Of a stretch of 64,000 bases of DNA, positions 8,271-42,029 are shown one piece after another (position 1 is the stretch's first letter; every line of letters starts with the position of its first letter). The stretch is from an uncultured Bacteroidales bacterium (GTDB lineage Bacteria; Bacteroidota; Bacteroidia; Bacteroidales; Bacteroidaceae), in NCBI GenBank assembly GCA_902773055.1, contig CACYCZ010000094.1, forward strand, positions 1-64,000, read 5' to 3'. The notes beneath the pieces are model-generated. The model saw only the letters and a list, made by a program, of their open reading frames with translations. It was not told where the DNA came from and did no database searches. The translations under genes were made by a program, and so were the position numbers.

Positions 8271-8354
8271 ATATTCACCGATGCTGAACGTATATTCACC
8301 GATGCGAAACATATGTTCCGCGACGGGAAACATACATTCACCATCGGGAAACAT
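8271..8354. repeat. 21-bp palindromic repeat array, locus 2 (4 units)
   Basis: Units at 8271-8291, 8292-8312, 8313-8333 and 8334-8354, all exactly 21 bp with A(T/C)(A/G)TTC at the left and GAAC(A/G)T or AAACAT at the right. Flanked on the left by ATACCCTGACATATTTC and on the right by TTTTATCGGG. It lies about 340 bases upstream of the nrdD promoter. Confidence 0.9.
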
Positions 8355-17136: not shown

Positions 17137-17356
17137 CCACATCCCGTCAGCAAAATGCACCGCATCTCCGGAAAAACCCGTTGCATCCTACCGCCTGCAT
17201 ATTTTCATCTTCCCTCAGTTTCATTACCTTATAGCGAGGCCATTCCACACCGGCACTTGCCAAGGTTGCCTATCTGTCAGACCGCCACAGTTTCGACAGA
17301 CCGATAAAAAGAACATACACAGGGCATTAAAAAGAAGCCATATCCCTATATTTTTT

Positions 17357-17440
17357 ATATTCAGCGTCGAGAAACATACATTCACCATTGCGAAACATAA
17401 GTTCAGCATCGGTGAACATACATTCCGCATCGGTAAACAT
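17357..17440. repeat. 21-bp palindromic repeat array, locus 3 (4 units)
   Basis: Units at 17357-17377, 17378-17398, 17399-17419 and 17420-17440. Typical units begin ACATTC and end GAAACAT or GAACAT. Left flank ATATCCCTATATTTTTT and right flank AAAATATCACGG resemble those of locus 2. Confidence 0.9.
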
Positions 17441-36984: not shown

Positions 36985-38229
36985 CTATTTGTAGAGTTTA
37001 TATTTCTTTGACAAGGATTTGAAGGTCTCCACATCCTTGTACCAATAATCCTTCACATCTGCCCAACGATGGTTTTGGGCAAAGCGCAGACGTATCTGTT
37101 TTGAGCCACACACTTTGTCAAACATATCAAAGCGCTTGGGATCCTGCACTTTGAAGACTGCCTTGTCAGGATACATGGCTGCGGTTTCCTGCATAATCAG
37201 GAACTGAATGTCTGTCAGAACCGCCTTGCCATAATCGGTGAAATGAACCTGGACACCTTCTATCTGCTCATCCTTCATGGTGGCATAGAATGGTTTGAGG
37301 TAGATAGGGCGGAAGATAACGCCGGGCAAACGGAATGCATTCATGCGCGCTGCCAGAGCCTCGGCATCCAGCCATGGTGCACCAAACATCTGGAACGGAA
37401 TGGTATATCCAACGCCAATATTCATATAGGAGAACTCGCCCAGTATGCCACTGACAGGATAGCAGATTGCTGATATCGGCTGAGGAATATGGGGAGAAGA
37501 AGGTATCCACTGAAGTCCTGTATCTGAATATGTCATACGGCGCTTCCAACCCTTCATTTTCACCACGGTAAGCTTGCATTGCTTACCATCGGTCAACATA
37601 CGCTCTCCATTTATCAATGATGCCAGTTCACCACAGGTCAGGCCGTAGATATAAGGTATCTTAAACTGGCTTACAAACGAGATGCAGTTATCCTCTGTCA
37701 GACATCCTTCCACCTTTTCGCCCCCGAGCGGATTGGGACGGTCCAGGATTACGAACTCTTTGCCACACTCCGCAGCAGTCTCCATGGCCAAGCCCATACT
37801 GCTTATGTATGTAAACGAGCGGCTGCCTATATCCTGTATGTCATAGACCAAGACATCTATGTCTTTCAGCATCTCAGGAGTAGCCTTTCGGGTCTTACCA
37901 TACAATGAATAGATTGGCAAGCCTGTCTTCTTGTCTACTTTGTCGTCTACCGATGCACCGGCATGCTGATTGCCGCGCACACCATGTTCCGGACCGAAGA
38001 GAGCCGTCAGTTTCACACCTGGTGCATTGAACAGCAAATCTACCGTAGAGCGCAACTCGTTGTCCACCCCTGTCGGATTGGTAATCAGCCCCACACGCTT
38101 ACCCTGCAGTAACTTGAAATTCTGTTCTTTCAGAACCTCTATACCTGTTTTTATTCTTATTTTATCGGCATGTGCCATAACGCTGCCTCCGAAAGCAAAT
38201 AATATTGCAAGCAATACTGTATTTTTCAT
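36985..38229 (-). CDS. namZ: Exo-beta-N-acetylmuramidase NamZ family (DUF1343, GH171)
   Basis: 414 residues with a signal peptide (MKNTVLLAILFAFGGSVMAHA). DUF1343 landmarks are GLITNPTGVD, ALFGPEHGVRG, DVLVYDIQDIGSRSFTYISSM, VILDRPNPLGG and the C-terminal GVQVHFTDY. Members from Bacillus and Tannerella cut N-acetylmuramic acid from the non-reducing end of peptidoglycan fragments. Periplasmic muropeptide recycling is the likely role. It has its own promoter (38249). Confidence 0.92.
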   Translation of the reverse strand: MKNTVLLAILFAFGGSVMAHADKIRIKTGIEVLKEQNFKLLQGKRVGLITNPTGVDNELRSTVDLLFNAPGVKLTALFGPEHGVRGNQHAGASVDDKVDKKTGLPIYSLYGKTRKATPEMLKDIDVLVYDIQDIGSRSFTYISSMGLAMETAAECGKEFVILDRPNPLGGEKVEGCLTEDNCISFVSQFKIPYIYGLTCGELASLINGERMLTDGKQCKLTVVKMKGWKRRMTYSDTGLQWIPSSPHIPQPISAICYPVSGILGEFSYMNIGVGYTIPFQMFGAPWLDAEALAARMNAFRLPGVIFRPIYLKPFYATMKDEQIEGVQVHFTDYGKAVLTDIQFLIMQETAAMYPDKAVFKVQDPKRFDMFDKVCGSKQIRLRFAQNHRWADVKDYWYKDVETFKSLSKKYKLYK

Positions 38230-38457: not shown

Positions 38458-38541
38458 ATATTTCACGTTGCTGAACATACGTTCACCATCGTGAAATATA
38501 CGTTCAACATCGGGAAACGTACGTTCAGCGACGATAAACAT
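38458..38541. repeat. 21-bp palindromic repeat array, locus 4 (4 units)
   Basis: Units at 38458-38478, 38479-38499, 38500-38520 and 38521-38541, typically ACGTTCA ... GAAACGT or AAACAT. Unit 3 has matched ACGTT/AACGT ends. Right flank is AAAACATATCGG, like loci 2 and 3. Unit order resembles locus 1 most closely. Confidence 0.9.
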
Positions 38542-38703: not shown

Positions 38704-38743
38704 GCAAAAAAAAGAGACCAGTCCTTCGCAGGCGGGGTCTCTT
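38704..38743 (-). terminator. Rho-independent terminator of the candidate RNA
   Basis: An 8-bp stem (AAGAGACC with GGTCTCTT), then up to eight U on the minus strand (38706-38713 read as A on plus). No minus-strand gene precedes it for more than 25 kb except the proposed RNA. Confidence 0.75.
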
Positions 38744-38900
38744 ACCATACATTTTTGTTTACTTAGGCTATACCATTTCTGTATTGGAACAGAATAGCCT
38801 CAGTCCGGCAATAGAAAAAGGTTAGAACAACAAGATTAAACAACTATAGATAGTTTTAAAAACAAAAGAATAAATTACTACAATACTTATTTTCAATTTC
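38704..38900 (-). ncRNA. Candidate structured non-coding RNA
   Basis: On the minus strand a -7 element (TAAATTTG, 38907-38914) and a rho-independent terminator (stem 38712-38719 with 38736-38743, then a U-run) bracket about 197 bases without a credible ORF. Inside are two more helices: AACTAT/ATAGTT (38842-38855) and a two-part hairpin AGGCTAT/ATAGCCT plus TCTGT/ACAGA (38765-38800). Size and layout suit a 6S-like or other Bacteroidales RNA, but I cannot match it to a family. Confidence 0.5.
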
Positions 38901-38906
38901 TGCATG

Positions 38907-38914
38907 CAAATTTA
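38907..38914 (-). promoter_or_regulatory. -7 promoter element (TAAATTTG) of the candidate RNA
   Basis: CAAATTTA on the plus strand reads TAAATTTG on the minus strand. Transcription would start near 38900. Confidence 0.45.
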
Positions 38915-38966
38915 TTTACACACGTCTCTGACTGGTGTTTCACATCATAAATTAAAACGTCAAAAA

Positions 38967-39001
38967 CATTGTCGAATCGTAAATTTTACGTTCCGACAAT
39001 G
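38967..39001. repeat. 35-bp near-perfect inverted repeat
   Basis: CATTGTCG ... CGTAAA pairs with TTTACG ... CGACAATG, 15 of 17 arm positions matching. On the minus strand a TTTTTG run follows, so it may work as a terminator in that direction or as a protein-binding site upstream of crcB. Confidence 0.6.
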
Positions 39002-39127: not shown

Positions 39128-39508
39128 ATGAATATGATGAAATCAATCCTTCTCGTTGCAACAGGAAGCGCATTGGGCGGTGTTCTCAGGTTTCTGACAA
39201 GCCGTTTGTCGGCAAGCCTGTTTCACGGCAGTTTCCCGCTGGGCACCTTTATCTGCAACATGACGGGATGCTTTATTATCGGCATCATCTATGCCCTGGC
39301 ATGCAGATGCAATTGGCTGAATGCTGACATGAAACTTCTGCTGGCAGTCGGTTTCTGTGGTGGTCTCACCACCTTTTCATCGTTCATCAATGAAAATTCC
39401 CAACTGGCAAGAACCGACCTTCCCATGACGTTTCTCTATGCCGGAGGCAGCCTGCTGGCAGGATTCATCATGCTGTACCTTGGTCAACAACTGACAAAAT
39501 TACTGTAA
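39128..39508 (+). CDS. crcB: Fluoride ion channel CrcB/FluC
   Basis: 126 residues from the ATG at 39128 (MNMMKSILLVATGSALGG; the ATG at 39134 is also possible). Four membrane helices. Family motifs: GSALGGVLRFLTSRL, FPLGTFICNMTGCFIIG (asparagine of the fluoride pore) and VGFCGGLTTFSSFINE. It forms a dimeric channel exporting fluoride from the cytoplasm. I did not find a fluoride riboswitch on the coding strand upstream. The next gene starts 4 bases later, an unexpected pairing with a glycoside hydrolase. Confidence 0.94.
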   Translation: MNMMKSILLVATGSALGGVLRFLTSRLSASLFHGSFPLGTFICNMTGCFIIGIIYALACRCNWLNADMKLLLAVGFCGGLTTFSSFINENSQLARTDLPMTFLYAGGSLLAGFIMLYLGQQLTKLL

Positions 39509-39512
39509 ACAT

Positions 39513-42029
39513 ATGAGAGCAACTCTATTTTCCATAGCCCTGCTACTGGCTTTTTCAGTTCATGCTGAATCATGGATCCGAATCAACCAGATTGGATATA
39601 TCCCCCAGTCGTCCAAAGTAGCCGTGATGATTTCGCAGGAAGACCTGCAGGTGGAAAGCTTTGACCTTGTAGACGCTTTTACGCAACAGGTTGTACGGCA
39701 TTTCAGCAAGAAACAAGTCAGCGCCACAGGTCCCATGGGACAGATGAAATCCACCTTCAGGCTCAACTTCAGCACCTACTGCAAACCGGGAACCTATTAC
39801 CTGCGGGCAGCCAATTGCCACTCACCGCTTTTTGCCATCAACGGAACGGTATACCAAGGCACGGCCGACTTTGTGCTGAACTACATGCGCCAGCAACGCT
39901 GCGGATACAATCCCTACTATAAGGAAAACTGCCACCAGAAAGACGGTTACATCACTAACCACCCCACCAAAACGGGACAGTTTCTTGATGTCAGGGGCGG
40001 ATGGCACGATGCCGGCGACTGTCTGCAATATACAGCCACGTCGGCCAATGCCATATATCAGATGATGTTTGCCTACCAGCAGAATCCCCATGCCTTTACA
40101 GACAAATACCAAACCGACGGCCGGCCAGGAAACAACGGAATTCCCGATATCGTAGATGAAATAAGATGGGGACTGGACTGGCTGAACCGCATGAATCCCG
40201 AAAAAGGCGAACTGTACAACCAGATAGCCGACGACCGCGACCATGTCGGCATGCGCGAACCACAGAATGACAAGGCCGACTACGGATGGGGCGAAAACAA
40301 CGGACGGCCCGTATATTATTGTGACGGCAAGCCCCAGCAACGCGGACAGTTCTTGAACGCCACGACCGGCGTAGCCAGCACGGCAGGAAAATTTGCCTCT
40401 GACTTCGCCCTCGGCTCCAAAATACTTCTCCCCTTCTATCCCGAGCTTGCAAAAACCATTGGGGAAAAAGCCGCCGATGCCTATGCCGTAGGTATTGAGA
40501 AGCCAGGGTACTGTCAGACCGTTTCCGTCAGGTCACCTTATATCTATGAGGAATCAAACTGGGTTGATGACATGGAACTGGGTGCAGCTGAACTGTACTT
40601 CAAGACAGGAGACAAAAGGTATCTGGAAGATGCTGTCCGCTATGGCCGTCAGGAAAAAACAACGCCCTGGATGGGCAGCGACACCGCCCGACACTACCAG
40701 TGGTATCCGTTCATGAACATGGGCCACTATCAGGTAGCTGTTGCCAGCAAGGACCGGCAGATACGCCAGGAATTCATTGCTAACCTGAAAGCAGGCATTG
40801 ACGGTGTATGGCAGCGCGCCAGAAAATCCCCCTTCTTCTACGGCATACCTTCCATATGGTGCTCCAACAACCTCACCACCGCCATGCTGACGCAGTGTAT
40901 CCTATATCGCCAGCTCAGCGGTGACCGCAGCTATGAGGAAATGGAAGGAGCACTGCGTGATTGGCTTCTGGGATGCAATCCGTGGGGAGTCAGCATGATC
41001 GTAGAGATGCCCATAGGCGGCAACTACCCCCGTCAGCCCCACTCCAGCAATGTCAAGCTGGGTATCGGCAACACCACGGGAGCCCTTGTTGACGGGCCTG
41101 TCTACGCTTCGATATTCAACAGTCTCCGCGGTGTATATCTGGAGCCCGATGCCAAAGGGCTTTACAACAACTACGACCTCTTCCAGCCCGGCATCATGGT
41201 ATACCATGACAATATCCACGACTACTCGTCCAACGAGCCTACCATGGACGGCACGGCCTCGCTGACCTTCCCCCTTTCAACCTATGCAGAGGAGGGACGC
41301 CAACAGATGAAACTGCAGTCCGACAACAACGTATACTACGAAGGCGGCATCATCAGAGGCAACCCCCAGAAGAAAAATATCTGCCTTATCTTTACCGCTG
41401 CTGACAAGGCCGATGGCGCGGAACCCATCATTTCCACACTGAAGAAATATCACATTCACGGCGGTTTCTTCTTCACTGGACAATTCTACGAAATGTTTCC
41501 CGATATCATCCAACGCCTGCGCAAGGAGGGACACTATGTCGGGAGCCACAGCTATGGCCACTTGCTCTATTTCCCCTGGGACAGGCGCGACACCATGCTG
41601 GTCAGCCATGAGGAATTCAACAACGACATGATAAAAAGCTATGCCCTGATGGAACAGGCAGGCATACACAAGGAAGATGCGCCTTTCTTCATCCCGCCAT
41701 ACGAGCACTACAACGAGACCGTTTCTGCATGGGCGAAACAACTGGGCCTGCAAGTCATCAACTACACTCCTGGCACAGCCAGCAATGGTGACTACACAAC
41801 ACCCAGCATGAAAAACTACTATAGCAGCCAGACCATTATCGACCGCATTCTCAAGTATGAATCCACCCAGTCAAACGGGCTCAACGGCTTCTTCCTGATG
41901 CTCCATTTCGGCACCTCGGCCGAACGTACAGACAAGCTATATAACCGACTCGGAGAAATCATCGACACCCTCCAGTCGCGAGGGTACAGCTTTATCTCCG
42001 TTGAAGAAATGGTCAGAGGGAAGAAATAA
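39513..42029 (+). CDS. Glycoside hydrolase family 9 fused to a polysaccharide deacetylase-like domain
   Basis: 838 residues with a signal peptide (MRATLFSIALLLAFSVHA). Residues about 20-110 are the cellulase N-terminal Ig-like domain (WIRINQIGYIPQSSKVAVM). About 115-600 form the GH9 barrel with the catalytic aspartates in GGWHDAGD (about 163-169) and the acid Glu in YSSNEPTMDGTA (about 574). About 620-838 is NodB/CE4-like with HGGFFFTGQF and the zinc motif SHSYGH (about 677). The usual TFDDG is replaced by TAADKADG, so deacetylase activity is uncertain. It probably degrades a beta-linked glycan in the periplasm or outside. Confidence 0.9.
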   Translation: MRATLFSIALLLAFSVHAESWIRINQIGYIPQSSKVAVMISQEDLQVESFDLVDAFTQQVVRHFSKKQVSATGPMGQMKSTFRLNFSTYCKPGTYYLRAANCHSPLFAINGTVYQGTADFVLNYMRQQRCGYNPYYKENCHQKDGYITNHPTKTGQFLDVRGGWHDAGDCLQYTATSANAIYQMMFAYQQNPHAFTDKYQTDGRPGNNGIPDIVDEIRWGLDWLNRMNPEKGELYNQIADDRDHVGMREPQNDKADYGWGENNGRPVYYCDGKPQQRGQFLNATTGVASTAGKFASDFALGSKILLPFYPELAKTIGEKAADAYAVGIEKPGYCQTVSVRSPYIYEESNWVDDMELGAAELYFKTGDKRYLEDAVRYGRQEKTTPWMGSDTARHYQWYPFMNMGHYQVAVASKDRQIRQEFIANLKAGIDGVWQRARKSPFFYGIPSIWCSNNLTTAMLTQCILYRQLSGDRSYEEMEGALRDWLLGCNPWGVSMIVEMPIGGNYPRQPHSSNVKLGIGNTTGALVDGPVYASIFNSLRGVYLEPDAKGLYNNYDLFQPGIMVYHDNIHDYSSNEPTMDGTASLTFPLSTYAEEGRQQMKLQSDNNVYYEGGIIRGNPQKKNICLIFTAADKADGAEPIISTLKKYHIHGGFFFTGQFYEMFPDIIQRLRKEGHYVGSHSYGHLLYFPWDRRDTMLVSHEEFNNDMIKSYALMEQAGIHKEDAPFFIPPYEHYNETVSAWAKQLGLQVINYTPGTASNGDYTTPSMKNYYSSQTIIDRILKYESTQSNGLNGFFLMLHFGTSAERTDKLYNRLGEIIDTLQSRGYSFISVEEMVRGKK

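Follow-up and report, generated by a model that had tools for sequence, protein, structure and literature searches.

A predicted small RNA (sRNA) gene lies on the minus strand in the 898-base gap between the starts of namZ (38229, minus strand) and crcB (39128, plus strand) in the 64,000-nucleotide stretch of Bacteroidales DNA analyzed here (the window). The best reading of the locus is a regulated sRNA, present once per genome, that acts in trans by base pairing and belongs to a new family restricted to this clade; its core would contact target mRNAs or a protein. It is reasonably probable that the gene specifies a free-standing intergenic sRNA of about 185 to 195 nt with a dyad-controlled promoter, an intrinsic terminator, and a core that base pairs in trans. 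Base pairing with several mRNAs is the most likely role. Base-pairing seeds usually measure 8 to 20 nt, and a core of 49 nt is long by comparison; a protein ligand is therefore the main rival, and the core may also have a dual role. The features of the locus are listed in Table 1.

Table 1. Positions of the predicted sRNA unit, its putative control region, and the flanking genes in the window
Feature	Position	Strand	Remarks
namZ (exo-beta-N-acetylmuramidase)	36985..38229	-	Own TAATTTTG box at 38256-38249; outside the sRNA unit
Predicted sRNA transcript, ~195 nt	38706..38900	-	Equivalents of 192 nt (L056) and 185 nt (L057)
Intrinsic terminator	38706..38743	-	8-bp stem plus inner 3-bp stem, U8 tail
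Internal hairpin AGGCTAT...ATAGCCT	38765..38800	-	-12.8 kcal/mol locally; sequence species-specific
Conserved core TTTATTCTTTTGTTTT..AAAC..ATCTATAGTTGTTTAATCTTGTTGT	38827..38875	-	49 nt, 92% of columns identical in three species; proposed target or protein contact
-7 promoter box TAAATTTG	38907..38914	-	Consensus TAnnTTTG; 12-mer ATAAATTTGCAT 92% identical across three species
Conserved 22 bp adjoining the dyad (TTTTTGACGTTTTAATTTATGA)	38945..38966		64% identical in all three species, 91% between the window and G017
35-bp dyad CATTGTCGAATCGTAAATTTTACGTTCCGACAATG	38967..39001		Proposed operator of the sRNA promoter
crcB-like gene, divergent neighbor	39128..39508	+	Own TAACTTTG box from 39099; missing at the G004 locus

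The gap and the minus-strand -7 element within it were both part of the original prediction. The element is a perfect match to the Bacteroidales consensus TAnnTTTG and is kept in two other species. By itself a single box is weak evidence, because the minus strand of the window carries 28 such boxes, three of them within the namZ-crcB gap. No clear conserved -33 box was detected at the sRNA promoter. Transcription would proceed from this housekeeping-type Bacteroidales promoter and stop at the intrinsic terminator. The start used here is an estimate, placed about 6 nt past the -7 box, and the end is the T run, which gives predicted lengths of 195, 192, and 185 nt in the three species. As had been claimed, the roughly 195 bases contain no open reading frame (ORF) of note, nor is any frame common to the three species, and no minus-strand gene lies upstream of the unit from which the terminator could derive.

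The proposed U-tailed terminator was likewise recovered. Its stem (AAGAGACC/GGTCTCTT, approximately -15 kcal/mol) is followed by T8, and it is the second strongest hairpin-plus-T-run combination among the 11 minus-strand runs of at least seven T's in the window. All of its pairs (11/11) are kept in the three species, two of them with compensatory changes on both sides; as 62 of 500 shuffles matched this pair conservation and only three sequences were compared, the support is modest. The internal hairpins of the original prediction fared less well. One, AGGCTAT...ATAGCCT, is present locally but does not form in the minimum-energy structure predicted for the full-length RNA, and the relatives do not share its sequence. 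Structural conservation thus extends to the terminator but not to the internal hairpins. The fold of the whole RNA was only mildly better than that of shuffled sequences (z of -1.9 to -2.8), and the variable hairpins together with the terminator may act as a stabilizing scaffold.

A BLAST search with the 215-bp region against 61 relatives returned two real homologues, in G017 and G004, both of the same genus. A scan of GTDB contigs with an exact 24-mer from the core retrieved only the same two metagenome-assembled genomes (MAGs), RUG376 (ONKB01000046) and RUG11179 (CACXEH010000023); we take the RUG label to denote rumen genomes. A model of the 72-nt core region (R1) scored 70 to 74 bits (E ≤ 3e-19) in the window genome, G017, and G004, with E-values that are rough and sequences that in all three species come from MAGs. 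These were the only three genomes in which R1 found the core at E < 1e-18, and nothing convincing was found elsewhere in 19 genomes of the genus and 151 of the family, leaving the element in 3 of the 19 genomes of the genus. The weaker R1 matches that were placed in context lay in or beside coding sequence and lacked a terminator context. When 399 family genomes were searched with a 21-mer at up to three mismatches, exact matches were again restricted to the three species. Recurring TATAGTTGATTAAACTTGTTC matches were rejected as a sign of wider distribution; they are positioned within an apparent integrase coding sequence. The element was not found at the remaining GH9 and namZ loci in the genus, nor in plasmids, phages, or viral contigs.

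Conservation within the region is sharply patterned. The share of alignment columns with the same base in all three species is 0.25 upstream of the dyad, 0.74 in the dyad, 0.14 in the spacer, and 0.92 in the -7 box; it is 0.18 in the 5' part of the RNA, 0.92 in the core, 0.24 in the rest of the RNA, 0.57 in the terminator, and 0.14 to 0.15 downstream. In the same three-locus comparison, pairwise DNA identity of the nearby GH9 gene was 0.77 and 0.75. The dyad, the -7 box, the core, and the terminator stem are thus under selection, whereas the DNA around them diverges freely. This conservation is the strongest evidence against a chance origin of the sRNA unit.

The 35-bp dyad is present as a single copy per genome in the three species and is absent from 58 other relatives. 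The distance from its center to the -7 box is 70, 70, and 69 bp in the three species, and the sequence of the spacer is not conserved. The distance from the dyad to the promoter box of the divergent gene varies (115, 100, and 115). The dyad is probably the operator of the sRNA promoter, where a dimeric DNA-binding regulator positioned about 70 bp upstream would control transcription, and the adjoining 22-bp block possibly belongs to the same control site. A role as the chromosome dif site is not favored, as the dyad is absent from other genus members and no clear skew switch lies nearby. Nor is it favored as a part of either RNA, since both predicted transcripts start downstream of it. As a separate observation, 21-bp-spaced units resembling TACGTTCAnCATCGnGAAA are dispersed through the window at 1395-1472, 8274-8351, 17356-17437, and 38461-38538 (18 matches at up to three mismatches versus 0.5 expected). 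Three of the four arrays consist of one inverted unit followed by three direct ones, and the 17356 array has four direct units. The one at 38461 falls in the interval from namZ to the sRNA terminator.

Across the 49-nt core the three species have no consensus helix in common, and the pairing predicted for the core varies from species to species. Since the core lacks conserved internal pairing, we infer an intermolecular partner. By analogy with GibS and FopS, the core, with its U-rich stretch and AUCUAUAGUUGUUUAAUCUUGUUGU, may pair with several mRNAs around their translation starts. A search of the three genomes for 20-nt complements, in which short seeds fall below detection, returned only the locus itself and one site with three mismatches in one genome. 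Likewise, the start regions of neighboring genes gave no significant or consistent duplex. The best such pairing, with GH9 in one species, was equaled by 5.5% of shuffles and was not repeated in the other two.

Alternatively, a real sRNA could titrate a protein in a CsrB-, 6S-, or RNA chaperone-like manner, with the 49-nt core as the protein site. This would fit a core that exceeds a typical seed in both length and strictness of conservation, that conserved internal pairing does not account for, and for which an extended complementary target was not found. However, the RNA has neither the repeated short motif of CsrB-type RNAs nor a 6S fold, the genome carries its 6S-like RNA at another locus, and no RRM-1 protein was detected in the three genomes; we consider titration unlikely, although it is the strongest of the rival explanations.

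It is also quite improbable that the core is a DNA promoter or operator for a shorter RNA, with a real transcript made up of the variable hairpins and the terminator only. Both TATAGTTG and TAATCTTG do occur in the core and differ from TAnnTTTG at a single position each, and the spacer between the two halves of the core is variable, its length changing by 1 nt. However, the perfect TAnnTTTG box 59 to 65 nt upstream is conserved and stands at a fixed distance from the dyad, and the candidate -33/-7 spacing within the core would be 14 to 15, which does not fit the spacing of about 19 that we read at 6S promoters in some members of the genus. In addition, an invariant core of 49 bp much exceeds the needs of a promoter.

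The surroundings of the element differ among the three species. Gene order in G017 is that of the window, while in G004 crcB is absent, namZ is found on another contig without the element there, and the element is flanked by GH9 and by a convergent gene for an AraC-type regulator. The GH9 gene of the window (39513-42029) encodes a single protein with a GH9 cellulase domain, a CelD_N domain, and a C-terminal polysaccharide deacetylase domain, and it adjoins a sodium:solute symporter gene. Because namZ follows as the nearest gene on the minus strand in two of the three species, the element might be thought a riboswitch-like 5' leader with an attenuator for namZ. However, in both of these species a separate TAnnTTTG box stands only a few bases before the namZ start codon, and the distance from the terminator to namZ is 477 nt in one and about 190 nt in the other. 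Because of this separate box, and because the G004 element has no adjoining namZ, a leader or attenuator role is very improbable; given the G004 locus, the element is not the 5' leader of a controlled gene in all relatives, and no ligand-binding aptamer family matches it. We assign the same very low probability to a short mRNA that encodes a small peptide or to a type I toxin-antitoxin partner: a TTG-started frame of 26 codons is present in the window species, but it is cut to 13 and 8 codons in the other two species. Least credible of all is that no RNA is made and that conserved regulatory or repeat DNA adjoins a coincidental terminator, given that all three species have the promoter, core, and terminator in order, with compensatory changes, and have the U run on the same strand.

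Searches of Rfam gave no match at the gathering score and no relevant match at E ≤ 10, the microRNA-type matches in that range being chance matches to palindromes. The original prediction had envisaged an independent sRNA, either 6S-like or of a new family. Independence and novelty agree with the conservation in three species, the lack of dependence on neighboring genes, and the Rfam result, but the 6S-like identity did not hold up. No covariance match to Bacteroidales-1 (RF01693), the 6S-like RNA, was obtained up to E = 10, and the copy of the window genome (G000) is found at another locus (G000:C83:36972-37138; L041), where it scores 97.6 bits and has a TATATTTG -7 box. The new sRNA resembles Bacteroidales-1 in its similar length, its promoter and terminator boundaries, and the order of these parts; it differs in having no covariance match to that family. 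Its own promoter and intrinsic terminator, the lack of a conserved ORF, and conservation across species are those of a generic intergenic trans-acting sRNA. The sRNA is ordinary in kind and new as a family.

Hardly any regulatory RNAs have been described from rumen Bacteroidales, and our literature search found no paper on one. The sRNA gene occurs where no RRM-1 protein, the known RNA partner in Bacteroides, was found: RRM-1 (PF00076) had no match in G000, G017, or G004, while the Bacteroides control was positive. As these genomes are MAGs of 93 to 99% completeness, the absence is probable rather than proven. The RbpB system of Bacteroides, in which RbpB binds sRNAs globally, is probably not the partner of the new sRNA, because no RRM-1 protein was detected in the three genomes. 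A bolder reading, which we regard as distinctly unlikely, is that this is the founding sRNA of a new family whose core binds an RNA chaperone or regulator in Bacteroidales lacking RRM-1, with a dedicated dyad-binding factor as the switch. If true, this arrangement would amount to a second, RbpB-independent riboregulatory system in the phylum.

For the preferred reading, a base-pairing sRNA acting in trans, the closest mechanism is that of GibS and FopS of Bacteroides thetaiotaomicron, in which a conserved single-stranded 5' seed acts on translation initiation regions (PMC7366714, PMC11697453). Like GibS (145 nt), the new sRNA (about 190 nt) is intergenic and bounded by a promoter and a terminator, with a conserved part toward the 5' side followed by weak hairpins and the intrinsic terminator (PMC7366714). 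However, GibS has PM2 where the new sRNA has a canonical promoter, and the GibS seed is at the very 5' end, whereas the new core begins about 25 nt in (PMC7366714). No shared sequence or synteny with GibS was found, and the neighbors differ. The likeness to FopS lies in the canonical TAnnTTTG promoter, a conserved core with a divergent remainder, and a terminator (PMC11697453). FopS is present in 12 to 15 copies per genome, its 41-nt motif is bound by the RRM-1 protein RbpB, and deposition of a FopS model is reported (PMC11697453). The new sRNA, at one copy per genome in G000, G017, and G004, is set apart by copy number and by RRM-1. Overall, GibS and FopS are parallels in mechanism and probably not members of a shared family. 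The locus offers a predicted sRNA gene that has clear boundaries and can be tested, together with a conserved core and a probable operator.
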